Positions 3,466 through 25,290 of a DNA stretch of 29,189 nucleotides are shown in pieces. The DNA is from a virus. Within the stretch, counting starts at the first letter, position 1. Every line of letters begins with the position of its first letter. Both the position numbers and the translations under genes were made by a program. Under the pieces are notes generated by a model that saw only the letters and a program-made list of their open reading frames with translations, did not search any database and was not told where the DNA came from. The DNA is taken from positions 1 to 29,189 of IMG/VR virus record IMGVR_UViG_3300035698_013882; one strand, 5' to 3'.

Positions 3466-5571
3466 ATGATAAAAAATATAGACTACTCTACAGCCTTAAC
3501 ACAGGTGACTAAGAAACAACTCAAGCAACCGAGGAATAATTCCTTAGTATATTACCTAGATACTTCTTTCAGTACAATCTATAGAGAAGATTCAAAGTAC
3601 CTCCTTTCAGAAAGCTCTTTCCTAGTTTCATGGCTATTAGACGCATTAGTAAATAGAGATGTAAAATGGAGTAACCTAACCAAACAACTTACAGTATCGC
3701 ACACTGACATTCTTCAGCAAACTAACATTACATTAAGTACTCAACATAAAATATTAACGAAACTATCAGAGTTAGGCTTTATAACTATTGACAGAGAGGC
3801 GAAGAAAAATAATACTTACAGCTTAGACTTAGATGCATTTATTACCTACTTTCTATCAGCGAGGAAGAAGGAGCAATGGCGTCAAGTAAAGGAAAACACA
3901 GAGAATTTTAAAGATGGATTTACGAGACTGATAAGCAAGACTAAACTAACGCCTTCTCAGAAACAATCTTACTTAAATGACCCTGTGCAATTCTTATTCT
4001 TCCTTATAGAGAAGCGAAGAACGTTTGTACCGATGATGAAGCATTTATGCACAAATATGCCACTGAAGCAAAATATATACTTATCGTCCTTGACCTACCT
4101 ATCAGAAATTTTTAACACATATAATGTACAGGATAAATCTTACACATGGATTACATCCTCCAAGATACAAGAGAGATCAAACCTTTCCTCAGATATGCAG
4201 TATGTATTAAAGAAGGCTTTGAGAGATAAGAAGTATATTACATTTGCAAATAAGTCAACCCATTACGTTAATCACTACACTAAGAGAAGATCTTTACGAA
4301 CACACACATATATCAACCTAGAGACTTCTAAAATTCTGGAAGATATTGTTAATACTTTTACACAGGATTCCAATAAGGAGATAAACATGACTGATCAGTT
4401 AATGGGATTAGATGAGATAGAACAGAGATTATTTAAAGAGGATGAAATCACTTTCTCACTACCTAATCGCGAGAGTGCTTCATATAATAGAGATGCAAAT
4501 CTAGCCTGTGTTGCTAAGATAGATAGAAAGATATTAGAGATGCAGTATACAAGAGGATTACGTCCTGTATTATATTTATTAAGTACCTATAAGTATTTTG
4601 CACGGAAGAATTTCCATAAGACTATTGAATTAGTGAATCCTTATAAGATGGAAAAATCTAAGAATTATAGAACCTTCACTAAACTTCATGAGTTCTTAGT
4701 TGAGCGAAAATATTCCTTGTATGGATATATTGCTGCTCAGTTTCATTATTTAAAAGGAACTAAGTACTTACCAAACATTTTACACCTAAGGACGGATAAG
4801 GCAGTCTTAAACTACTTAAGGTTTCTAGAAGATTACAGAGCTGGTAAAGTAGGACCTATTGTTGCTAAGCATATTGAAGTTGAAGATGAAAACTTAGGAG
4901 CGAGGGAGTTAGAATACTTAAATCAATTAAGACAGTACCGGTCTCAGCAGGTAACATTTGAACCAGCTGCGTTATGTGGTATACATCCTAATTTAGTCAA
5001 TCAAGTCTTAACAGGAGTAAGTAGGCTTCCAGGTAAGGATATAGAAAAGTATATCCTTAATAATTGGAAAGATGTGACAGAATTAGTAATACATAATGGA
5101 TACGATAAAACAGTTGAGGTGATTAAAGCTAAGTTTCCTAATACCAAGTTTCACATACTAGATACAGATTGGGATAAGCAATTCGAGATTCACCTGACAA
5201 ATAGATTTCCAGGCTTCACTTACAGTCCTCCTGGATCTGATGCTTATAAGTTAGAGGTAGCTAAGAAGAATAACTTAGAAGGCAAGATGGTAGAAGCTAT
5301 GAAGAGTCAGAAAGAGTTTGTTAGAAAACGTATTGCCCTTGCAAACTTACAGACTAGGTATCATAAAGGTATGAAAGACTATTTCAACCAGTTTGGTATA
5401 GAGATGAATTATAAAGAGAAGTTATTATTAAGAGCTTCAATCGTTAAGGATTTAGGATTTGAAAAAGATCCATCACCAACATCAGAATCAGTTTTAAAAC
5501 GTATAGAGGAAGAAGGAAAGAAAACAATGAATAGAATACATCATTATTATAGAGAAAAGCTAAGTAACTAA
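3466..5571 (+). CDS. Putative replication protein with winged-helix domain
   Basis: A 701-aa protein at the head of the replication cassette, three bases before the helicase gene. Residues about 65-125 read as a winged-helix DNA-binding domain: a helix rich in small and polar residues, then TQHKILTKLSELGFITID, a typical recognition helix and wing. A second HTH-like stretch lies near residues 500-530 (LCGIHPNLVNQVLTGVSR). The rest is basic and helical, with no nuclease or polymerase motif that I can see. Its position before helicase and primase suggests replication initiation or helicase loading, but this is inference. The ATG at 3466 has only a weak AGGA site. It could instead be a regulator. 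Confidence 0.6.
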   Translation: MIKNIDYSTALTQVTKKQLKQPRNNSLVYYLDTSFSTIYREDSKYLLSESSFLVSWLLDALVNRDVKWSNLTKQLTVSHTDILQQTNITLSTQHKILTKLSELGFITIDREAKKNNTYSLDLDAFITYFLSARKKEQWRQVKENTENFKDGFTRLISKTKLTPSQKQSYLNDPVQFLFFLIEKRRTFVPMMKHLCTNMPLKQNIYLSSLTYLSEIFNTYNVQDKSYTWITSSKIQERSNLSSDMQYVLKKALRDKKYITFANKSTHYVNHYTKRRSLRTHTYINLETSKILEDIVNTFTQDSNKEINMTDQLMGLDEIEQRLFKEDEITFSLPNRESASYNRDANLACVAKIDRKILEMQYTRGLRPVLYLLSTYKYFARKNFHKTIELVNPYKMEKSKNYRTFTKLHEFLVERKYSLYGYIAAQFHYLKGTKYLPNILHLRTDKAVLNYLRFLEDYRAGKVGPIVAKHIEVEDENLGARELEYLNQLRQYRSQQVTFEPAALCGIHPNLVNQVLTGVSRLPGKDIEKYILNNWKDVTELVIHNGYDKTVEVIKAKFPNTKFHILDTDWDKQFEIHLTNRFPGFTYSPPGSDAYKLEVAKKNNLEGKMVEAMKSQKEFVRKRIALANLQTRYHKGMKDYFNQFGIEMNYKEKLLLRASIVKDLGFEKDPSPTSESVLKRIEEEGKKTMNRIHHYYREKLSN

Positions 5572-5574
5572 CTC

Positions 5575-6909
5575 ATGGCGGATTTAACCTCTACTATATT
5601 TAGCGTTGAGTACCAGAAGAATATTCTCGCAAGTCTTGTCCGTCTACCTGGTTTCTATGCTAAGGCAAGGCATTTAATCAAACCTAAGTATTTTACAGCA
5701 GACCCTGTTAGAGAAGTATATGAGGTAATAAGTACGTTCATGGATCAACACAATGATCTCCCTACAAAAGGCATTGTAGAGCAAACATTTTTAAATAATC
5801 CTTCTAAGCTATATAATCAGCAATCACAGCAATTTCAAACTATTTTTGATTTGCTTTACAGTGATGAGATAGGTACTGCTGCATTAGAGACTATTCAGGG
5901 AGATTTTATATCATATATAAGCAGTATTAGAATGTATGATAATTTTACTTTAAGTCTTACTAGTTTGAAAGATGGAGACTTTGATAAAGCTTTTGTTCTA
6001 GTCGATGAAGCAAGACAAGAAATTGCATTAGACGAAGATGATATTTCCATTTTCCATATTGAGAATGTAGATGAGAGAATGAAGGAGCAAGATGCTAAGC
6101 AGAAAGATGTTGCTAGTAAAGGTATACCGACAGGATATGCTAGCTTCGATAGTGTTAATAGATATAAAGGGTGTCCTAAAGGAACTTTGTGTGTTGCAGT
6201 TGCTGGCACAGGTGGAGGAAAATCTATTCTATTGTGTAATATAGGAGGAGCAGCTGTACTAGACGGGCATACAGTACTACACATTACTTTAGAAAACTCA
6301 CAAGAGCAAACACACGAGAGATATGATTCATTCTTCACAGGTGAGAACATAGATCACATGTTTAGAAAATCAAAGGAGGTAGCGGAGTTCTATACTAAAA
6401 ACCCTCTTCCCGGCATGTTATTAATAAAAGAATTCAACGCGGGAGAGGCATCTATACTAACAGTAGATTCATACCTAATGCAATTAGAACAAGATAAAGG
6501 AATTGTACCGGATGTTCTTATTATAGATTATGCAGACGAGATGGAAGTCAGTAGATCAGTTTTTACAGAAACAAGAGCTATCTGGCAGAATCATTTTACT
6601 AGAATGAAAGGGCTTGCTAAGAAATGGAACGTTGTCTTATGGACAGCTACTCAGGGTAATACACAATCAGAAGGCAAAGAAACTTTTGGTAAGAAGGATG
6701 TATCAGAAGGAGCATCTAAACTAAGACCAGCTGATCTGGCTGTGGGTATTTCAGAGAGTGATCAAGATGTTAGTTTAAAGGAATGCAAGCTGCACTGGAT
6801 GAAGAGTAGATTTAGTAAAGATAAGTTTATTACACAGTGTGTCAAAGACACAGAGCGTATGCTTATACAGGAAATTGCAGTAGGCCTTGCAAGAACGGAT
6901 CAGATGTAA
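5575..6909 (+). CDS. Replicative DNA helicase, DnaB-like
   Basis: A 444-aa protein with the two-part layout of DnaB/gp41-type hexameric helicases. An N-terminal helical domain (residues about 8-110) matches the DnaB N-domain pattern, and a RecA-like ATPase domain follows from about residue 185. Walker A is AGTGGGKS (residues 210-217). Walker B is VLIIDYAD, about 100 residues later, followed by a WTATQGN segment that fits motif H3. It should unwind duplex DNA 5'-3' at the phage fork and work with the primase next door. It starts three bases after the 701-aa gene and its stop overlaps the primase start (TAATG), which implies coupled translation. Confidence 0.88.
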   Translation: MADLTSTIFSVEYQKNILASLVRLPGFYAKARHLIKPKYFTADPVREVYEVISTFMDQHNDLPTKGIVEQTFLNNPSKLYNQQSQQFQTIFDLLYSDEIGTAALETIQGDFISYISSIRMYDNFTLSLTSLKDGDFDKAFVLVDEARQEIALDEDDISIFHIENVDERMKEQDAKQKDVASKGIPTGYASFDSVNRYKGCPKGTLCVAVAGTGGGKSILLCNIGGAAVLDGHTVLHITLENSQEQTHERYDSFFTGENIDHMFRKSKEVAEFYTKNPLPGMLLIKEFNAGEASILTVDSYLMQLEQDKGIVPDVLIIDYADEMEVSRSVFTETRAIWQNHFTRMKGLAKKWNVVLWTATQGNTQSEGKETFGKKDVSEGASKLRPADLAVGISESDQDVSLKECKLHWMKSRFSKDKFITQCVKDTERMLIQEIAVGLARTDQM

Positions 6910-16281: not shown

Positions 16282-17697
16282 ATGCCTGCAGCCGTAGTAG
16301 TCGCCGCAGCGAAGAAAAAGAATATGAGTCTTAAAGCCGCAGAAGATTTATGGTTTCAAGCAAAGCATATAGGTGATAAGCAGATGGGTGATAAGAGAAA
16401 AAGTTCCCCTGGGCAATACTGGTCCTTTGTTAACTCCATATTTCAAAAGAGCTTGAACGAAGGCAGCGATCAGTTATACACAGATCTGAGTAAAGAAGAC
16501 AGGGCAGAACATGAGAAGTTTTATGAAGAGGTTAATCCAGACGAGTTCTCTCACGCAGATGATCCAGATAGTGATTTCGATCCCGAGCAGCTAGCAATGG
16601 GTACCGAAGTTGAAAAAGAGCACACAGACGATGTGAATATAGCTAAAGCAATCGCTAAAGCACATCTAGCAGAAATACCTGATTACTATACAAGACTAAA
16701 AAATATGGAGGATGGAGCAATGAAAGAAGGTCAAATATATGAACAATACTTAGCAGGAGATAGGGCATTACTAGAATCTACAGAAGTACTACTAGAAGGT
16801 AAAATTATAAATGTAGTAAAAGGTGCAATATCCAAAGTAGCATCCGCAGTAGGTAAGTCTCCTAAAGCTGTAAAAGTAGTTATAGGGTTAGCTTTATATA
16901 TGGTATATGTACAGAAGGGAACCGCTAACGCAGAGAAGCTTATGAAAGCAGGTATTAGATCAACAGGTGGAGACCCAGATAAATTAGGTTCTTATTATAT
17001 GGACGAGGTAGCAAAGAGTATGCTTATGAGTGATATGCAAAGATCAGGATCAGCACTATCTAAATTTCCTAAAGAGATAGGCGAGGCGCTGCAAAAGGTT
17101 GCGATAGGAGCAACCTCTCTTTCTCCTTTTTTTGGGGCTAATGTTGTCTTAAAGAATACTTTTGGTAATGCTCGTACAATACTTAATTCTTTTTCAAAAG
17201 AGATGACTAGTAGAATATTAAAATACTCTCGAGAGGGTGATTATGGAGCTCCAAGATTAAAAGCAGCTAATGAGGCTCAGGCGTATGATAGCTACCTAGC
17301 AGGGACTACATCTCTGAACGAATGTATTTTAAATGAAAGCAGCCTGAAAGATTTAGAAGATAAAATGAGAACTCATGTAAGTGATAAAGGTAAAAAAGCT
17401 GTAGGTAATACTCTTGATGCAAGTAAGTCAATTTTAACTTTATACAATAAGTATAAGGCAGCAGGTGGTAAGAAAGAAGTAAAGGATATATTGAAAGAAG
17501 AAAATCTAACAGAGGCATTAAGTATTGGGGATGCATTCCTTAAACTAGCGAAAAATAAAGGCAAGAAGATCATCATACATTATAAAAATAAGATGACTGA
17601 GTTTCAACCGCATCAAGAAAGTCACGCCAGAGATCTTTTAGATATGTTAGATAAAGACAGTGTTCCATTTCAAGTAGAGTTTGCGAAGAAATTTTAA
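16282..17697 (+). CDS. Modular head protein with two internal targeting motifs (possible polyprotein)
   Basis: A 471-aa protein of three blocks. Residues 1-146 contain an EDLWFQAKHIG...YWSFVNSIF segment and a PEQLAMGTEVEKEHTDD...YYTRL segment that resembles the DUF5661 family of phage proteins. Residue 152 begins IYEQYLAG with LLE at 163-165 and LLEG at 170-173, then a basic and a hydrophobic helix (about 196-210). Residue 335 begins AYDSYLAG, followed by a third block of about 120 residues. The motifs are the same as those at the N-termini of other internal-type proteins. This suggests that the protease cuts the protein into separate internal proteins, or that the downstream parts are also made from an internal start (see 16707-16722). 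Its position between protease and scaffold fits a core component. Confidence 0.65.
   Translation: MPAAVVVAAAKKKNMSLKAAEDLWFQAKHIGDKQMGDKRKSSPGQYWSFVNSIFQKSLNEGSDQLYTDLSKEDRAEHEKFYEEVNPDEFSHADDPDSDFDPEQLAMGTEVEKEHTDDVNIAKAIAKAHLAEIPDYYTRLKNMEDGAMKEGQIYEQYLAGDRALLESTEVLLEGKIINVVKGAISKVASAVGKSPKAVKVVIGLALYMVYVQKGTANAEKLMKAGIRSTGGDPDKLGSYYMDEVAKSMLMSDMQRSGSALSKFPKEIGEALQKVAIGATSLSPFFGANVVLKNTFGNARTILNSFSKEMTSRILKYSREGDYGAPRLKAANEAQAYDSYLAGTTSLNECILNESSLKDLEDKMRTHVSDKGKKAVGNTLDASKSILTLYNKYKAAGGKKEVKDILKEENLTEALSIGDAFLKLAKNKGKKIIIHYKNKMTEFQPHQESHARDLLDMLDKDSVPFQVEFAKKF
16707..16722 (+). promoter_or_regulatory. Likely internal ribosome site and start codon within the 471-aa gene
   Basis: GGAGG (16707-16711) stands eight bases before an in-frame ATG (16720, Met147). 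Starting here gives a 325-aa protein beginning MKEGQIYEQYLAG, so the motif would lie at the N-terminus exactly as in the free-standing members of the family. Dual translation is inferred. Confidence 0.5.
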
Positions 17698-17710: not shown

Positions 17711-18910
17711 ATGACAAGAAGAAAAAAGAAAGCTATTAGAGAAGCAATGGCAGATAAGAAGATACTATACTCAGGTAAGTGGTTAGACCTCATACAGTTT
17801 AATGATTACGAAACTATAGACGAAGGGGATATAGTAATCATTCTCCCAGTAGTAAGAGGATCAGATAGTACAGAAACTAAAGTAGGTATAAGATTAGAGT
17901 ATTGTCCACCTTATATGTACAGCGATAAAATAGAACGATTATGGTATACAGTTATTAGTGGGGGTATTGAAGAAGGGGAGACTCCGAAGCAAGCACTACT
18001 AAGAGAGATCAAAGAGGAAGCAGGAGTTGCTGCAATAGAGGGAGAGCCAGAACTTATTGCAAGTAACATTCCAGTATGTAAAAGTACTACAATGAGAGCT
18101 CACATATACAAAGTATTCGTAAAAGCTGATAGCATAGACGCAACACTAGCTACAGGAGATGGCACAGAGAATGAACAGAAGAGTTCAACTATATGGGTAA
18201 CGAGAGAAGAACTTAAGAGTATCCTAAACCAAGAGCAGCATGATTTATTAGTACAGTCCTTAGCGCCACAATGCTTCGATGTTTCCGCTAATATAGACCC
18301 AGTAGTGCTGCAGAAGAGATTTGAAAGCATCGAAGAAACTATAAGACAGATACTGCCACAGGCTACGATTAATATTGAAGAGACCTTAAATTCCTGTTTA
18401 GAAAGTCAAAATTCAGAGAAGTTAAATCTTACGGAAAAATCACTAAAAGAAGCAAATTCTTCCATATCGGAAATGAAAGAGACTATTCAATTCCTAACAG
18501 AGCAGCTAAATGAATCCTCAGAGGTTGCTCAAGAATTGTCAAGTACATTAGATTCGATAGTAGAAGAGAAGAGTAACGAAGTTGATAAGTTGATTTCCGA
18601 GAACCACACACTTGAAGTTGAGAAGACAGTTCTAGAAGCTAAGGTTTACGCCAATAAGCTTTTAGATGAAACCTTCAGTCTACGCCCAATAGCTGAGAAG
18701 TTACTAGAGTGTAAGACAATTGAAGAAGTTGATATGACAGCAACAACGGTTAAAGAGAACGTTGAATTATTTGGGATTGACCAGATGCTTGCAGAAGCAA
18801 CAGGCAAACCGAAAGGCATCTCTTACATTAATCCCGAGGCGATAGTAATTAATGCTAATCTAACCGAGGATCAGATTGAGGCTAAGAGACTAGCCGGATT
18901 ATTAACTTAA
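17711..18910 (+). CDS. Nudix domain fused to a T4 gp22-like scaffold region
   Basis: A 399-aa protein. The start at 17711 is chosen because AAAGGAG lies just upstream; an in-frame ATG at 17681 inside the previous gene lacks a site. Residues 84-106 are a complete Nudix box (Gx5Ex7REUxEExGU) with REIKEEAGV at its end, so the N-terminal 190 residues should hydrolyse a nucleoside diphosphate linked to another group. From about residue 230 the protein becomes a long acidic coiled coil (SLKEANSSISEMKETIQFL), ending with a compact tail that includes MLAEATGKPKG, where LAE is a possible cleavage site. Its place between protease and capsid gene is that of the T4 core scaffold gp22. The fusion is unusual. 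The substrate is unknown. Confidence 0.75.
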   Translation: MTRRKKKAIREAMADKKILYSGKWLDLIQFNDYETIDEGDIVIILPVVRGSDSTETKVGIRLEYCPPYMYSDKIERLWYTVISGGIEEGETPKQALLREIKEEAGVAAIEGEPELIASNIPVCKSTTMRAHIYKVFVKADSIDATLATGDGTENEQKSSTIWVTREELKSILNQEQHDLLVQSLAPQCFDVSANIDPVVLQKRFESIEETIRQILPQATINIEETLNSCLESQNSEKLNLTEKSLKEANSSISEMKETIQFLTEQLNESSEVAQELSSTLDSIVEEKSNEVDKLISENHTLEVEKTVLEAKVYANKLLDETFSLRPIAEKLLECKTIEEVDMTATTVKENVELFGIDQMLAEATGKPKGISYINPEAIVINANLTEDQIEAKRLAGLLT

Positions 18911-18932: not shown

Positions 18933-19601
18933 ATGGTGGAAGTAAATTATAAAATAGACACGCCTTTAGATAGCAATGAAGATCTCAGTCTTGTTAATTT
19001 AAAGTATATGCTAGACATAACAAAAGCAGCCGTACAAAATATGGTTGAGGGTGACCAAGATGCAATCGGTGCAATTTGTACTGATTCAACTTCAGCAACC
19101 TTAACTTACGATGATGCAGCTCCATCTATTACAGCAGTAGTTCTAGTAGATGATGACACTCTAGAAATAGATGGAACTAATGGTGTACAGATTAAAGCAT
19201 TAGGTGTTGATACAGCAGAGTTAGCTTTACTAGCAGTTGACACAGCTCAGATAGCTTTACTAGCAGTTGACACAGCTCAGATAGCTGCAGATGCAATTGA
19301 CAATACGTTAATCGCCGATGCCGCAGTATCATTAGAAAACTTAGATGCAGGTGTTGCACCTGGTTTTATCACAGTAGGCGCAGCAGAAACAACTTGGTCA
19401 GGTGGCGGTGCTACATTAGCAGTAAGTGTTAGTGGAGTTTTGACTACAGACATAATTGTTGCTGGTTTTCATACAATTGGAACAGAAGGCGCTACATTAG
19501 CAGCTGTTGCAACAGAAAACACAATTACATTTACTCTTGATGCAGCTAACACAACTAACGATGCTGTTGTTGTTTATCAAATTCTAAGAGCAGCTGCGTA
19601 A
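18933..19601 (+). CDS. Repeat-containing surface or fibre-type head protein
   Basis: A 222-aa protein with CAGGAGG before the ATG. Its middle has four 10-residue repeats (VDTAELALLA, VDTAQIALLA, VDTAQIAADA, IDNTLIADAA), a pattern seen in phage fibres and head decorations that fold as trimeric beta structures. The C-terminal 80 residues form a beta-rich domain ending VVYQILRAAA, as in phage proteins exposed on the virion. Position directly before the capsid gene supports a decoration or head-fibre role. No catalytic motif is visible. Confidence 0.6.
   Translation: MVEVNYKIDTPLDSNEDLSLVNLKYMLDITKAAVQNMVEGDQDAIGAICTDSTSATLTYDDAAPSITAVVLVDDDTLEIDGTNGVQIKALGVDTAELALLAVDTAQIALLAVDTAQIAADAIDNTLIADAAVSLENLDAGVAPGFITVGAAETTWSGGGATLAVSVSGVLTTDIIVAGFHTIGTEGATLAAVATENTITFTLDAANTTNDAVVVYQILRAAA
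19206..19325 (+). repeat. Tandem 30-base repeats coding for 10-residue units
   Basis: Four units of 30 bases: 19206-19235, 19236-19265, 19266-19295 and a diverged fourth, 19296-19325. The stretches 19222-19251 and 19252-19281 are identical, which points to a recent duplication and a length-variable region. Confidence 0.85.
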
Positions 19602-19749: not shown

Positions 19750-21093
19750 ATGCAACCTTTAATGTTAATGGAGCAAAGAATCGCTCGAGATAAATCCCTT
19801 CTTGAAAAATGGGGATATCTTGTAGAAGGAATCAAAGGGTTTTCAATTGAAGACACGATGACTAAAAAAATGAACGTAGCTAGAATGTTGGAAAACCAAA
19901 CATTACAGTTATCAGTAATGGAAGCTACAGACAGTTCTAACGTAGCACAGTTTAAGAAGTACGCGTACCCATTAATCAGACGAGTATATCCTACTCTAGC
20001 GATTAATGATCTAGTATCAGTACAACCACTAGAAGGACCAGTTGGACAAATCTTTACATTCCAAGCGAAATATGGAACTACTAAAGGATCTACAACTGCA
20101 GGAACAACTGTATACAATAACGTTGACAAGAATTACACGTCTAACACTATTAGTACAGAGACAGTACAGGCATCAGGATCATCTACTACAGCATATGGTG
20201 GATCACTAGCTTTCAAACCTGTTGTTGTTAGTTCAGTAACAGTTACTATTGACACAATAGTAGGTACAGATGATGGCGCAGGCGCAATCACAGGTACAGG
20301 TATTGCTTCTGGTACTATCAATTACACTACTGGTGTAGTTGCTATTACACTTGATGCTGGTAACACAGCAGCGATGACAGCTGTTTACAAGTTTAACAGT
20401 GAAGGTAATACTCAACAGGCAGAAGTAAACTTTGAGATTACATCTGAAGCGGTTCAAGTTTCTGATAGAATCTTAAGAGCGAAATGGACGCCTCAAGCTC
20501 TACAAGACATGATGGCAGTTCACGGAGTTGAAGGTGATAAAGCTTTCACAGATGAAATGGCTAGACAGGTACAGCGAGAAATTTCACGTACTGTTATTGA
20601 TGAGCTATCTGCTAACGCAGCTGCTACACCAGTAAGCTTCACTAAAGCTCGTCCAACATATATCTCTTACGAAGACCATAAGAGAACATTAGTTGACAGC
20701 ATTACAGAAGTTAGTACTAACATCTATCAAGCATGTCTACGTGGTGCAGGAAACGTTATGGTAGTAGGAGCAAATGCTGCTAACATCATACAAACATTAC
20801 CTTCTTTCAGAGGAGATAGTGAGCAAGCGTTAATGCAGCCAAATGGTAGAATTGGTGTTCTTAATAACAGATGGATCGTTATTCAAGATATCAGTTATGA
20901 TGCAAACACAATTCTAGTCGGTTTTAAAGGCGACGGATTTGTTAACTCTGGAGCTGTATTTTCTCCATATGCGTTAACACTGACAGACGCTTTACTAAAT
21001 CCAGATGACATGAAGATCAGAAAAGGTATCTTAAGTCGAGACGCATTTACTCGAGTTAATAACTACCACTTTGGTTTAGTCAATATGGTATAG
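19750..21093 (+). CDS. Major capsid protein, T4 gp23-like
   Basis: A 447-aa protein that forms the head shell. Similarity to T4 gp23 is clear in the segment after the propeptide: YPLIRRVYPTLAINDLVSVQ, then GPVGQIFTFQAKYG, and in the spine-helix segment LRAKWTPQALQDMMAVHG (242-259). The first 58 residues form a charged, helical propeptide with LLE, LVE and MLE triplets. VME58 followed by AT is the best maturation site, comparable to LTE65 in gp23. An inserted beta domain (about residues 157-217, TIVGTDDGAG...TGTGIASGTINYTTG) has a close match in the 331-aa protein at 24295. Folding probably depends on the co-chaperonin at 8324. Transcription ends at the hairpin at 21121. Confidence 0.92.
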   Translation: MQPLMLMEQRIARDKSLLEKWGYLVEGIKGFSIEDTMTKKMNVARMLENQTLQLSVMEATDSSNVAQFKKYAYPLIRRVYPTLAINDLVSVQPLEGPVGQIFTFQAKYGTTKGSTTAGTTVYNNVDKNYTSNTISTETVQASGSSTTAYGGSLAFKPVVVSSVTVTIDTIVGTDDGAGAITGTGIASGTINYTTGVVAITLDAGNTAAMTAVYKFNSEGNTQQAEVNFEITSEAVQVSDRILRAKWTPQALQDMMAVHGVEGDKAFTDEMARQVQREISRTVIDELSANAAATPVSFTKARPTYISYEDHKRTLVDSITEVSTNIYQACLRGAGNVMVVGANAANIIQTLPSFRGDSEQALMQPNGRIGVLNNRWIVIQDISYDANTILVGFKGDGFVNSGAVFSPYALTLTDALLNPDDMKIRKGILSRDAFTRVNNYHFGLVNMV

Positions 21094-21120: not shown

Positions 21121-21156
21121 ACAACGGCAGGCTTGATTGTCTGCCGTTGTTTTATT
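21121..21156 (+). terminator. Intrinsic terminator of the capsid gene
   Basis: A perfect 10-base stem, ACAACGGCAG (21121-21130) with CTGCCGTTGT (21141-21150), a 10-base loop and a following TTTATTT. It separates the highly expressed capsid gene from the cysteine-motif array. Confidence 0.85.
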
Positions 21157-21193: not shown

Positions 21194-21232
21194 ATGACAT
21201 TACATACACAAAAGCAGACTTCAATACTATGA
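21194..21232 (+). CDS. Possible 12-residue leader peptide
   Basis: An AAAGGA site precedes an ATG at 21194, giving MTLHTQKQTSIL and a stop. The stop TGA overlaps the ATG of the first cysteine-motif gene as ATGA. That gene has no good ribosome site of its own, so this mini-frame may bring ribosomes to it. It could also be chance. Confidence 0.35.
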   Translation: MTLHTQKQTSIL

Positions 21233-21516
21233 AGCTATCGGATCCATCTGTAGGCCTAACAAGTAAGATAGTAATGCATGTGGATTATACTTCAAACAAC
21301 GACGGGTGGTATAGCCCAAAGATAGTATACAAAGCCTTATTTAATGATAGATGCTTAGAAGTTTATAATTGTCCTTACTATATGAGTTGCTTAATAGGAC
21401 ACCTAGACGGCACATGCCCTAAAGGTACAAAAGGAAGAGAAGGCTCAGAGGAAGTTATATTAAACATGGTAGAAGAACATGATTTAATTGAAGTAATGTC
21501 AAGGGATAAAAGCTAA
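21229..21516 (+). CDS. Four-cysteine-motif protein 1 of 8
   Basis: A 95-aa protein and the first of eight consecutive small genes sharing one motif. The cysteines are C42, C48, C54 and C63 in RCLEVYNCPYYMSC...TC, with the invariant Tyr three residues after the second Cys. The open frame extends upstream to 21133, but that would start inside the terminator stem. The ATG at 21229 overlaps the stop of a 12-residue leader. Its own ribosome site is poor. The N-terminal part has a beta-like stretch (TSKIVMHVDY) and the tail is acidic. The motif could bind zinc or form disulphides; function unknown. Confidence 0.65.
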   Translation: MKLSDPSVGLTSKIVMHVDYTSNNDGWYSPKIVYKALFNDRCLEVYNCPYYMSCLIGHLDGTCPKGTKGREGSEEVILNMVEEHDLIEVMSRDKS

Positions 21517-21887
21517 TGGTTAAAGTAAATCTTATAGCTGGCGCAGGTGGTTCAGGTGGTTCCGGAGCAATAGGAGCAACAGGAGGAGCTGGTCAAGTCT
21601 TAACGACAGATGCATTTAAAGATTTAATTGCAGCTGTTAAATGTATTGGTGATAAATGTGATCACTACTTGGAATGTTTATCTACCAGAGAGATGAAAGA
21701 TACTTGTAAGAACTTTGAAACGATGGATAGATATAATGATATGTTAAAACTAAGAGATATGGATATACCCTTAAGTGAAATAGGACAACAGCTAAGAACT
21801 TGGACATCTGCTAACGCAGGCGCCGGAGTTGGAAGCATAGTTGTTCCAATTAGGACAGCTGGGAGTGCTACTAATGTTATTGGCTAG
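21516..21887 (+). CDS. Four-cysteine-motif protein 2 of 8, Gly-rich N-terminus
   Basis: A 123-aa protein whose start overlaps the previous stop (TAATG). Residues 8-27 are a glycine-rich run (AGAGGSGGSGAIGATGGAGQ), unusual among its neighbours and reminiscent of flexible or collagen-like virion segments. The cysteine motif follows: C43, C48, C54, C64 with DHYLEC in the middle. The C-terminal 40 residues are rich in A, G and V. Function unknown; family membership rests on the motif and gene order. Confidence 0.7.
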   Translation: MVKVNLIAGAGGSGGSGAIGATGGAGQVLTTDAFKDLIAAVKCIGDKCDHYLECLSTREMKDTCKNFETMDRYNDMLKLRDMDIPLSEIGQQLRTWTSANAGAGVGSIVVPIRTAGSATNVIG

Positions 21888-22230
21888 TACTCCTGAAACT
21901 CCAAGAGAAAGTGCTTATAAAAGATTCGCAAAAGGAAAATATTTTGAAAATAAGAACATTGAAATTGCACACGGTAATACAGGCGAGTTTGGTAAGTATC
22001 TTTTTAGTAATTATTTACGCGCTCTTAATTGTAAAAAAGAGAAGTGTCCGGATTACTTAACCTGCTTAGCAACAAGACAGGTGACTAAGAGGTGTAAGAA
22101 ACATTCAGAGAATGTATTCGATATAGTAGATTATAAAGAGATGGATTCTATTCAGGAACTGCAAGCAGCTACTCAGACAATAGATGAACATATAAGAAAA
22201 GAAATGTTTAAGAATGTTGGATTAGCATGA
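21874..22230 (+). CDS. Four-cysteine-motif protein 3 of 8
   Basis: A 118-aa protein. The frame is open from a TTG at 21841, but the ATG at 21874 has GGGAG about nine bases upstream and overlaps the previous gene by only 14 bases, so it is preferred. The motif is C53, C58, C64, C74 in NCKKEKCPDYLTCLAT...RC. Residues 10-50 are basic and aromatic, and a helical C-terminus follows. The KKEKC segment is shared with protein 4 and nearly with protein 5 (KKEEC), which suggests these three are the most recent duplicates. Confidence 0.7.
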   Translation: MLLASTPETPRESAYKRFAKGKYFENKNIEIAHGNTGEFGKYLFSNYLRALNCKKEKCPDYLTCLATRQVTKRCKKHSENVFDIVDYKEMDSIQELQAATQTIDEHIRKEMFKNVGLA

Positions 22231-22421
22231 CCGTATTAGAAAGTATATTTGTTTGTAAGAAAGAAAAATGTGCTGCTTACTTAATATGCTTAACTAAAGG
22301 AGAACTATCCTACTATTGCAGAAGACAGATGAAGACAAGAGAACTAGGTGATCCTACTCCAACTACATCAGGACCACTTAAGAGATCAGCTGCAAGAACA
22401 GCTTTTACATTGGATGAATGA
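22227..22421 (+). CDS. Four-cysteine-motif protein 4 of 8
   Basis: A 64-aa protein beginning with an ATGA overlap. Its motif lies almost at the N-terminus: C10, C15, C21, C31 in VCKKEKCAAYLICL...YYC. The remaining 33 residues are basic and rich in T, P and S. So little flanks the motif that the motif itself is probably the functional unit. Confidence 0.7.
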   Translation: MTVLESIFVCKKEKCAAYLICLTKGELSYYCRRQMKTRELGDPTPTTSGPLKRSAARTAFTLDE

Positions 22422-22579
22422 TGGTAGAAACTCACGTTTGTAAGAAAGAAGAGTGTGCTAATTATCTTAGTTGCATGGCTACTAAACCATTAACACATTT
22501 TTGTAGAAAGTTCTTAAGAGCAAAATGGACACCTCACGCATTAGCAGATCTTAAAGCTATTCATGGAAAGGGTTCTTAG
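22418..22579 (+). CDS. Four-cysteine-motif protein 5 of 8, fused to a capsid-protein-like segment
   Basis: A 53-aa gene starting at overlapping ATGs (22418 or 22421) within the previous stop. The cysteine motif is C8, C13, C19, C29 (VCKKEECANYLSCM...FC). Directly after it, residues 33-50 read LRAKWTPHALADLKAIHG. This matches residues 242-259 of the major capsid protein (LRAKWTPQALQDMMAVHG) at 13 of 18 positions by eye, with 19 of the first 21 bases identical. It is either a relic of a duplicated capsid gene or a functional capsid mimic. The protein ends three residues later. Confidence 0.7.
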   Translation: MMVETHVCKKEECANYLSCMATKPLTHFCRKFLRAKWTPHALADLKAIHGKGS

Positions 22580-22995
22580 TGGCACCGTTTACAGTACAGG
22601 AGAAATGCATTGAAAAAGATTGTAGTTGTTATTTAGAATGTATAGCAAGCCCAGGTCAAGATAGAGATAGCCAAGGCAGATTAAAGCGATGCATTCTAAG
22701 GAGTGGAACTAGATTGGGACCAATAACACATAGTTATGGACAGATAGATTTATATACTAGAAATATTGTAATAGGATGCTCCGATGTGTACGGAGTAACT
22801 ATGCCACCGCCAGAGAATATAGAAGATGGTGACATGATAGTACTTAGGACTACTCAGCGGTGCAACATAGGATCCTGCAGTGGCTTAAGTTTAATAAGAC
22901 CTGCAACTTTAGAGTACGATGATTCACTAATACTTATATACGATGAAGGCAGGCAGGTGCTACAAGAGCTAACAAGAACAGTAAAGCTACTATGA
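22579..22995 (+). CDS. Four-cysteine-motif protein 6 of 8
   Basis: A 138-aa protein starting at a GTG that shares its G with the previous TAG stop; AAAGGG lies upstream. The motif is C10, C15, C21, C38 (KCIEKDCSCYLEC), with an insertion before the last Cys. Two further cysteine pairs (GCSDVYG near residue 73, RCNIGSC near 95) lie in a beta-rich C-terminal domain that includes GDMIVLRTTQ, which may be a small barrel. It is the largest member. Function unknown. Confidence 0.65.
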   Translation: MAPFTVQEKCIEKDCSCYLECIASPGQDRDSQGRLKRCILRSGTRLGPITHSYGQIDLYTRNIVIGCSDVYGVTMPPPENIEDGDMIVLRTTQRCNIGSCSGLSLIRPATLEYDDSLILIYDEGRQVLQELTRTVKLL

Positions 22996-23246
22996 GCATA
23001 AAGCGTAAAGTTAGAACAACAATAATAGGTAAAGAATTAAGAGTCTCATCTGGAAGATCCATCAGCAATTATACTACATATTTTATGCAGAAGACAGACA
23101 GCTGTGCTGATACTTTTAACTGTCCTGATTATCTTAGATGTATGTTAAATGCAGAGGATATAAAATGTTTGAAGGCACAGCGAGCAGCAGGAAGCTATCA
23201 TTGCATCGGCAAATACTTAAAAACAGGTGATGCAAAGAGATGGTAG
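22992..23246 (+). CDS. Four-cysteine-motif protein 7 of 8
   Basis: An 84-aa protein with an ATGA start overlap. A basic N-terminus (MSIKRKVRTTIIGKELRV) precedes the motif C38, C44, C50, C59 (SCADTFNCPDYLRCM...KC). The spacing C-x5-C-x5-C-x8-C is the same as in proteins 1 and 8, whereas proteins 2-5 have x4-x5-x9, so two subfamilies exist. Confidence 0.7.
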   Translation: MSIKRKVRTTIIGKELRVSSGRSISNYTTYFMQKTDSCADTFNCPDYLRCMLNAEDIKCLKAQRAAGSYHCIGKYLKTGDAKRW

Positions 23247-23443
23247 GAGAACTAAAAGAGTTTTATAAGTATTGTACAATAGGATGCTCAGACGTCTTAC
23301 AGTGCAGCAACTACATGGCATGTCTGTCCGGTAAAGCAGTAGATCATTGTCCCAAATCAGGATTTGCCAGTGTATCTACAATTAAGTACGAGTCTAGTGC
23401 TGATATACTAAATGACTACATTTCAAAATTACTAACATTATAG
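23240..23443 (+). CDS. Four-cysteine-motif protein 8 of 8
   Basis: A 67-aa protein that closes the array, overlapping the previous gene by seven bases. The motif is C16, C22, C28, C37 (GCSDVLQCSNYMACL...HC) with an extra C12. Its GCSDV segment also occurs in the C-terminal part of protein 6 (IGCSDVYG), a further sign of exchange among the paralogues. Function unknown. Confidence 0.7.
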   Translation: MVGELKEFYKYCTIGCSDVLQCSNYMACLSGKAVDHCPKSGFASVSTIKYESSADILNDYISKLLTL

Positions 23444-23475: not shown

Positions 23476-24291
23476 ATGGTTACGAAGAAAGACTTAGTAG
23501 CAGAATTAAAAATATTAGGAGGAGATATATCCAAGTTTAAGGACCTTACTAATTCTAAAATACAAGAAGAGATAGATAGATTAAGAGACCTGATTCCTAA
23601 AGTAGGAGACGACGATGCAATACTTACTACAGATAATGATGAAAACACGCAGGACACTGAAGAAACCATTGAATCAGATACAGATAGCACTGAAGGGCAA
23701 GACAGCTCTACAGCGGGAGAAGATGCTACTGCTGACGAATCAGCAGATAGCGAAGCTGCAGTTGAAGGTAGCGAGGAAGATTCGACGGAGGAAGATTCGG
23801 ATCTTGCGCCAGCAGCAGCGGCTGTGGAGACAGACACAGAAGTAGAAGGCGACGGTACACCATCTGAAGCTACTATTTTAGAAGATGCAGATATTGAGAA
23901 TTTATCTGAAGAAGAATTAAAAGCTCTTCTTGCCTCAAGCACATCTGTTGATACTATTCTAGACGCTGCGCTTGAAGATGATATTATAGCTGCAAGTATA
24001 CCTAAAACATTAGGTGATCGTAATGAAGAGTTGAATGCTAAAGAGGAAGAAGCTGTAGAAGCTATTGCGGAGGATAAAACGACTGAAGGACTATCTAGTG
24101 TTCCAAAAGGATCTCATATTTTAGAATTTGAGATAGAAGATAAGGGCGCTGTACTAAAAAACTACATTTTTATTAATAACAGCCAAGCTCAGCCTGTTGC
24201 TGACGGTGCTGGTAACATTCATCTTATTGGCACAGGTGCATATATTGGATATCCTTATAATCCAAACCCAACTCATTTCGCAAGAGTATAG
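23476..24291 (+). CDS. Acidic low-complexity structural protein
   Basis: A 271-aa protein. A TTG at 23467 is in frame but abuts the AAGGAG, so the ATG at 23476 (nine bases after it) is used. Residues 1-40 form a charged helical domain (VTKKDLVAELKILGGDISKF), and about 45-140 are a long D/E/S/T/A-rich disordered stretch. The C-terminal 60 residues form a beta-type domain (SHILEFEIEDKGAVLKNYIF...YIGYPYNPNPTHFARV) that looks like a virion module. LSEEEL and IAEDK offer possible cleavage points. It may be a vertex, decoration or core protein; no firm family was identified. Confidence 0.6.
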   Translation: MVTKKDLVAELKILGGDISKFKDLTNSKIQEEIDRLRDLIPKVGDDDAILTTDNDENTQDTEETIESDTDSTEGQDSSTAGEDATADESADSEAAVEGSEEDSTEEDSDLAPAAAAVETDTEVEGDGTPSEATILEDADIENLSEEELKALLASSTSVDTILDAALEDDIIAASIPKTLGDRNEELNAKEEEAVEAIAEDKTTEGLSSVPKGSHILEFEIEDKGAVLKNYIFINNSQAQPVADGAGNIHLIGTGAYIGYPYNPNPTHFARV

Positions 24292-24294
24292 TAA

Positions 24295-25290
24295 ATGAGA
24301 TATACAGTAGATCGACTTAAGCAAAAAATTAAACTAAGCCTAGGAGATGGTGTGCTTGCATTAGAGACTACAAGTGATCAATTAGATAATGCTCTTGAAG
24401 ACGCATTAGATATCTATAATGATTATGTTACTAATGTGAGATACTCCACCATTGAAATTGGTAAAGATGTATCAGTATATACATTATCCCCCATACCAGC
24501 AATACTATCAGACGACACATCTGAGACTATTGGCACAGTTCCTGACACATCAACTAGTGCAAGCATTACTAAAGTATTATCTTCTCTACCTATAAATCCA
24601 TCTTCTTTCAGTGTTGTAATAGGCACTATCACAGGTGAAGACGACGGAACAGGTTCTATAACAGGAACAGGTATTGAATCAGGGCTTATTAATTATGAAA
24701 CAGGTGAAGTTAAGATTGTTCTTGATGCCGCTGTTTCAGGTATTAAGAATGTTATTGCGACTTACAAACAAATTATAAGAGAAGAATTAGAGATTGAAAG
24801 CGTCTTAGATGTAGAGCAGACAGACCCTCATGTAGCAACTTCTATATTGAGTAGAGGTGGCATATATGATATTATAGGTATACAGTTTACAGACTTACAG
24901 GAAACATCTGCTAACTACTACAAAGCAATACAAGACATTACAGATATGAACAGACTCATGGGAGCAGAACTAGACTGGAAGTTCATCAAGGAAACAAGTA
25001 TCTTATATATTAAGGCACCTTCCAATGGATCAGTCAACGTAACTATTGCAGTTGCTCCAAGAATTGAAGATATCGCTGATGATAGAACTGGCGATTTCAT
25101 TAAGCTTGCTACAGCTTGTACTAAAAAGATCTTAGGAAGAATTAGATCTAAGTATAAAGGTGTCGCAGTACCAGGAAGCACATTAGAGCTTGATGGTGAA
25201 ACATTGCTTAGTGAAGCTAATGAAGAAGAGTTGAGTGTACGGGAGTCTTTGAAGAAGAAGAACAACCCCCCGTTTATACACATTGCATAA
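24295..25290 (+). CDS. Putative head-tail connector (neck) protein with inserted beta domain
   Basis: A 331-aa protein. The N-terminus (YTVDRLKQKIKLSLGDGV then LDNALEDALDIYNDYV) and C-terminus (LATACTKKILGRIRSKYKG, then LDGETLLSEANEEE) have the helical pattern of phage adaptor/neck proteins that sit under the portal. The middle (about residues 102-160) is a beta domain, VVIGTITGEDDGTGSITGTG...INYETGEVKIVLDA, closely similar to the insertion in the major capsid protein. The start follows the previous stop by three bases. A role in head completion is likely, but the exact T4 counterpart (gp13 or other) cannot be set by eye. Confidence 0.6.
   Translation: MRYTVDRLKQKIKLSLGDGVLALETTSDQLDNALEDALDIYNDYVTNVRYSTIEIGKDVSVYTLSPIPAILSDDTSETIGTVPDTSTSASITKVLSSLPINPSSFSVVIGTITGEDDGTGSITGTGIESGLINYETGEVKIVLDAAVSGIKNVIATYKQIIREELEIESVLDVEQTDPHVATSILSRGGIYDIIGIQFTDLQETSANYYKAIQDITDMNRLMGAELDWKFIKETSILYIKAPSNGSVNVTIAVAPRIEDIADDRTGDFIKLATACTKKILGRIRSKYKGVAVPGSTLELDGETLLSEANEEELSVRESLKKKNNPPFIHIA

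Follow-up and report, generated by a model that had tools for sequence, protein, structure and literature searches.

A tandem array of eight small four-cysteine genes between the capsid and neck genes of a distant T4-type phage

What role might be played by a run of eight small, overlapping genes, each encoding four cysteines in a similar arrangement, that lies directly behind a phage capsid gene? We address this question in the IMG/VR record IMGVR_UViG_3300035698_013882, which was analyzed from positions 1 to 29,189 (29,189 bases; hereafter, the window). The window encodes a portal, a prohead protease, a gp23-type capsid protein, a neck protein and a head closure protein and carries the head genes of a distant T4-type phage. 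Its capsid protein is 62% and 58% identical to those of two IMG/VR fragments, L004 and L005, respectively; in the phage collection, no capsid relative reaches 60% identity, and the best is at ~35%.

Layout of the array and its neighbors

The array consists of eight consecutive small ORFs (21229-23443) directly behind the capsid gene (Table 1). In the first-pass annotation, it was taken to begin at 21194, which is the start of a 12-codon leader ORF; the first gene with the motif begins at 21229. The same annotation described all junctions as overlapping or nearly so and the genes as one coupled unit right after the capsid terminator. We find that all seven internal junctions overlap (by 1, 14, 4, 4, 1, 4 and 7 nt), which, together with the position of the terminator, supports this description. 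Overlap is commoner inside the array than at the other junctions of the window, which were counted by hand (about p = 4e-4). A strong AAAGGAG site follows the array, at the start of the gene at 23476. Within each of the eight genes, frame 0 scores above the other five frames, as expected of coding sequence, and the coding/codon-usage scores lie a little below those of most head genes. Searches for non-coding explanations with Rfam and for tRNA gave no match.

Table 1. Features of the array and its surroundings in the window.
Feature	Position	Strand	Remarks
gp23-type major capsid protein, upstream neighbor of array	19750..21093	+	phrog_138, E 2e-58
Intrinsic terminator of major capsid gene, upstream border of array	21121..21150	+	12-bp stem, 7 GC pairs, T-run
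Leader ORF, 12 codons (MTLHTQKQTSIL)	21194..21232	+	AAAGGA Shine-Dalgarno; TGA overlaps ATG of gene 1 (21229)
Gene 1, 95 aa, class B motif CLEVYNCPYYMSCLIGHLDGTC	21229..21516	+	
Gene 2, 123 aa, Gly-rich N-terminus, class A motif CIGDKCDHYLECLSTREMKDTC	21516..21887	+	Similar to gene 3 over 90 aa
Gene 3, 118 aa, class A motif CKKEKCPDYLTCLATRQVTKRC	21874..22230	+	
Gene 4, 64 aa, class A motif CKKEKCAAYLICLTKGELSYYC	22227..22421	+	
Gene 5, 53 aa, class A motif CKKEECANYLSCMATKPLTHFC followed by capsid-like tail	22418..22579	+	
Capsid-derived segment in gene 5 (LRAKWTPHALADLKAIHG)	22512..22567	+	DNA 73% identical to capsid gene 20471-20526
Gene 6, 138 aa, GTG start, motif CIEKDCSCYLECIAS...KRC, long C3-C4 loop	22579..22995	+	
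Gene 7, 84 aa, class B motif CADTFNCPDYLRCMLNAEDIKC	22992..23246	+	
Gene 8, 67 aa, class B motif CSDVLQCSNYMACLSGKAVDHC	23240..23443	+	
Acidic protein, downstream neighbor of array	23476..24291	+	Weakly similar gene directly behind L004 capsid gene
Neck (head-tail adaptor) protein	24295..25290	+	phrog_211; syntenic anchor conserved in L004 and L005 (43% and 34% identity)

Apart from the array, we observe that the capsid protein (19750-21093, residues 129-212) and the neck protein (24514-24756) have in common an inset of ~80 residues, VGTDDGxGxITGTGI... (47%, E 7e-14), which can be seen in L004 and L005 as well. A scaffold-like coiled-coil protein encoded upstream of the capsid gene (17711-18910) bears a Nudix domain (PF00293, E 3.5e-10) at its N-terminus; L004 has a Nudix-box-like sequence, recognized by eye, at the matching place (4922-5980), and the L005 scaffold is without Nudix.

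A common motif and its paralogous copies

The motif reads C-x4/5-C-x2-Y-[LM]-x-C-[LMI]-x7-15-C and forms a module of 22-29 residues joined to differing tails. Its presence in eight genes, as first annotated, is confirmed: the six-frame translation of the window contains exactly eight matches, all on the + strand and inside the array, and 100 Markov shuffles of the window contain none (mean 0.0). A profile built from the array finds the same eight places in the window and no ninth copy. When each member is left out in turn, the resulting profiles recover seven of the eight among 459 ORFs (E = 5e-4 to 6e-11), the exception being gene 6 (22579, E 0.59). This failure is probably due to its C3-C4 loop of 16 residues, and the membership of gene 6 is therefore a matter of pattern. 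The two spacing classes noted earlier hold as stated, with x4-x5-x9 (class A) in the genes at 21516, 21874, 22227 and 22418, x5-x5-x8 (class B) in those at 21229, 22992 and 23240, and x4-x5-x16 (A') in gene 6, such that the order along the array is B A A A A A' B B.

The first-pass annotation held that the flanking sequences differ almost completely. Although the tails do differ, this is too strong, as genes 2 and 3 (21516 and 21874) can be aligned over ~90 residues (30%, E 3e-8) and genes 4 and 5 (22227 and 22418) over 30 residues (43%). These neighbors are among the most alike pairs, as tandem duplication would give, which supports the earlier proposal of repeated duplication. With mutual profile similarity above chance, and with gene 6 included by pattern only, the eight genes form one paralogous family of tandem duplicates.

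Cysteine makes up 5.1% of the array proteins versus 0.62% of the proteins elsewhere in the window and is thus eight times commoner, and genes 1-5 encode no cysteines besides the four of the motif. Over the module, pS ranges from 0.69 to 1.05 and pN from 0.26 to 0.48 in nine same-class pairs, with pN below pS in all nine. The difference is significant in each of the seven pairs tested (p 0.02 to 8e-7), although these pairs lack independence and their synonymous sites are close to saturation. At the conserved Cys and Tyr positions, both codons are in use (TGT/TGC and TAT/TAC mixed). As pN is well below pS among the paralogues, we conclude that the module is kept as protein.

The capsid-like segment mentioned in the first-pass annotation proves to be the tail of gene 5 (22418), which is derived from the capsid protein (65% over 20 aa, E 9e-6; DNA 73% over 56 nt). 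A comparison of this tail with the capsid gene gives pS 0.68 and pN 0.17 (p 0.002), and p = 0.19 when synonymous change is split half to each side, which is a rough split. Much of the synonymous change may stem from the constrained capsid side, and thus, selection on the gene 5 tail is not demonstrated. We also weighed whether the tail is left over from a gp24-like vertex gene; among the phage records, its top match is the Rhodothermus RM378 head protein at E 1, which is too weak to name a donor.

Relatives and resemblance to known modules

Profile and pattern searches of Pfam, PHROGs, NCBIfam, PADLOC and the PDB yielded chance-level matches only, in agreement with the earlier remark that no named family has this layout. 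We queried 50,697 phage records by tblastn with seven full-length array proteins and with the tail of gene 5, and nothing below E 0.5 was returned; the candidate for gene 1 at that value (H33) is a 33-residue open stretch without the motif. Motif DNA patterns matched 92 stretches in IMG/VR, of which the open ones are short or low-complexity and have no second motif copy of note. The candidate L014 was rejected because it runs antisense to a longer frame. In the codon-limited scans, which covered IMG/VR and GTDB genomes, no relative was found, though relatives could be missed, as the DNA patterns fixed some codons or residues. Motif alignment in the viral and genome collections confirmed none, and capsid queries in genomes had no match. 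The family is new to every library searched, while duplicated small accessory proteins in the head region of phages are a known kind.

The AlphaFold2 model of gene 3 is helical around the motif with a pLDDT of 54, which is too weak for cysteine geometry, and that of gene 6 has a pLDDT of 33, including its tail of ~100 aa, which looks beta-rich by eye. A Foldseek comparison of the array models with viral models gave a best E of 2.5, which is meaningless. The CxxC knuckle of classical zinc-ribbon and zinc-finger proteins is absent from all eight members, whose spacings are x4/5, x5 and x8/9/16. A small helical module held by metal or disulphides would agree with four cysteines that include no CxxC pair. 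The C-x5-C-x5-C of class B presumably recalls the iron-sulphur motif of Rrf2-type winged-helix regulators (IscR/NsrR), which have the same spacing of the first three cysteines; the class A spacing differs, and NCBIfam gave no Rrf2 match for the array. In class A, C3-x9-C4 is also found in CHCH/CX9C proteins, such as the complex I subunit NDUFB7, but these have a twin CX9C, whereas the array has one C-x9-C, in class A only. Weak PDB matches to CHCH/CX9C proteins (E 0.29-2) are not significant and cover C1-C3 rather than the twin CX9C.

The first-pass annotation raised the question of arrays at the same place in other gp23-type phages, and we find none in L004, L005, the records of ten relatives (several of which are fragments) or further loci searched with the array profile. 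Behind the L004 capsid gene come a terminator, one gene and then the neck gene; the gene between terminator and neck gene is weakly similar to the one at 23476 in the window (E 0.001, over the C-terminal 41 residues). The place behind the capsid gene in L005 is taken by a fibre-like gene that is 45% identical to the one at 18933 in the window, followed by a short gene and the neck gene. Several other accessory ORFs lie between the capsid and neck genes of the Streptococcus phage vB_SagM-GXN1. The same interval thus holds extra genes in L005 and GXN1 as it does in the window, but they belong to other protein families without the four-cysteine motif. Because L004 and L005 lack the array and the contents of their intervals differ, the array would be a lineage-specific insertion in a variable capsid-neck interval, and as far as can be seen in collections that may lack the closest records, it looks specific to the lineage of the window. 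As the relatives are few, it may instead have been lost in L004 and L005. Within the GXN1 interval (L020 10963-13084), we observe three small ORFs, unannotated in the record, with a common start (MRLVRLTED, MRLVKLTES and MRLIRLNED).

Possible roles of the array

The first-pass annotation suggested a zinc- or disulphide-based module in a multi-component virion or anti-host system; the site of the array would favor head-linked proteins made late. We tentatively favor the explanation that the array encodes late head-associated accessory proteins with the four-cysteine module as their common anchor. Tandem duplication and tail exchange would have produced the eight paralogues as a young, lineage-specific array inserted between the capsid terminator and the next head-neck gene. 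The genes would probably be transcribed late, along with those of the head, and their translation would be coupled from one to the next. The module is probably helical and held by its four cysteines, which more likely bind metal (Zn or Fe-S) than form disulphides, as the cytoplasm is reducing. The module would serve as the anchor, and work or display would fall to the variable tails. The proteins most likely end up in the head, as decoration or packaged accessory proteins, because the site is among head genes, the interval carries accessory genes in relatives, and one tail is a piece of capsid protein. Points against this explanation are that the searches gave no homologue of known function, that the CxxC knuckle usual in zinc modules is absent, and that the structure models are weak. 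In T4, internal proteins have an N-terminal capsid targeting sequence, which the prohead protease cleaves, and are packaged in the head and injected. The candidate packaging signal YEQYLAG, whose role is itself putative, is found in five other proteins of the window and in none of the eight array proteins, which counts against packaging by that route and not against decoration. A bolder form of this explanation, in which a new metal-binding anchor in eight copies, encoded by one coupled operon, attaches different tails, including the capsid piece, to the head as a modular virion kit, strikes us as unlikely; if true, the phage would display or package a changing set of accessory proteins.

Other roles can be weighed on the same evidence. 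As the main alternative, the array might be directed at the host, with small late or injected proteins whose common metal module binds host targets, such as nucleases, RNA polymerase or defence proteins, and whose tails follow an arms race. We regard this as possible though somewhat doubtful. It would suit the fact that the paralogues are orphans that diverge fast, keeping their core while their tails vary, as well as the basic residue that lies at most two positions past the fourth cysteine in seven of the eight members. It would also suit the resemblance to the T4 internal proteins (IPI and its relatives), which are described as defence proteins of diverse kinds with nothing but a capsid targeting sequence in common (PMC3012670): both are small, fast-evolving sets with one short conserved element and otherwise unrelated parts. 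The common element of the array, however, is a four-cysteine module of varying position rather than a targeting sequence, and no sequence similarity to the T4 proteins was found. The array also lacks PADLOC, Pfam and PHROG matches, sits between head genes, and has no copy of the candidate targeting motif.

The array might also mark a site prone to recombination, at which fragments have gathered that are in part selfish or decaying and have no single function in common. This would account for the capsid fragment in gene 5, the variation of the interval between relatives and the lower codon-usage scores of the array genes. Eight intact frames that overlap throughout, strict Cys/Tyr conservation, and pN below pS in every same-class pair make it improbable. 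We give equally little credence to late regulators of transcription or translation, in which case the products would be small zinc or iron-sulphur proteins that act much as phage sigma/anti-sigma factors do and have no structural role. Small size, the net positive charge of four members and the presumed likeness of class B to the Rrf2-type motif speak for regulators; the lack of any Rrf2 or zinc-finger match in Pfam even at E 10 speaks against them, and eight regulator copies in one operon would be odd.

If the module is indeed an anchor, as in the head-associated explanation that we favor, the array would represent a set of head-linked or injected proteins built by domain duplication and tail swapping, and the module would be a new small cysteine module for structure solving. 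Accessory proteins might then be sought in the capsid-neck interval of such phages. If the array proteins are cytoplasmic, they would represent a new orphan family under duplication.

Elsewhere in these genomes, LYEQYLAGDxxLLE-like motifs occur in the window (12094, 16738, 17284, 26931, 27923 and 29126), in L004 (349) and in L005 (8638), often near N-termini, and the YEQYLAG-type motif is a candidate capsid-targeting or prohead-protease signal. Two copies lie in a DUF5661 domain protein (E 1.8e-13) at 16282-17697 of the window.
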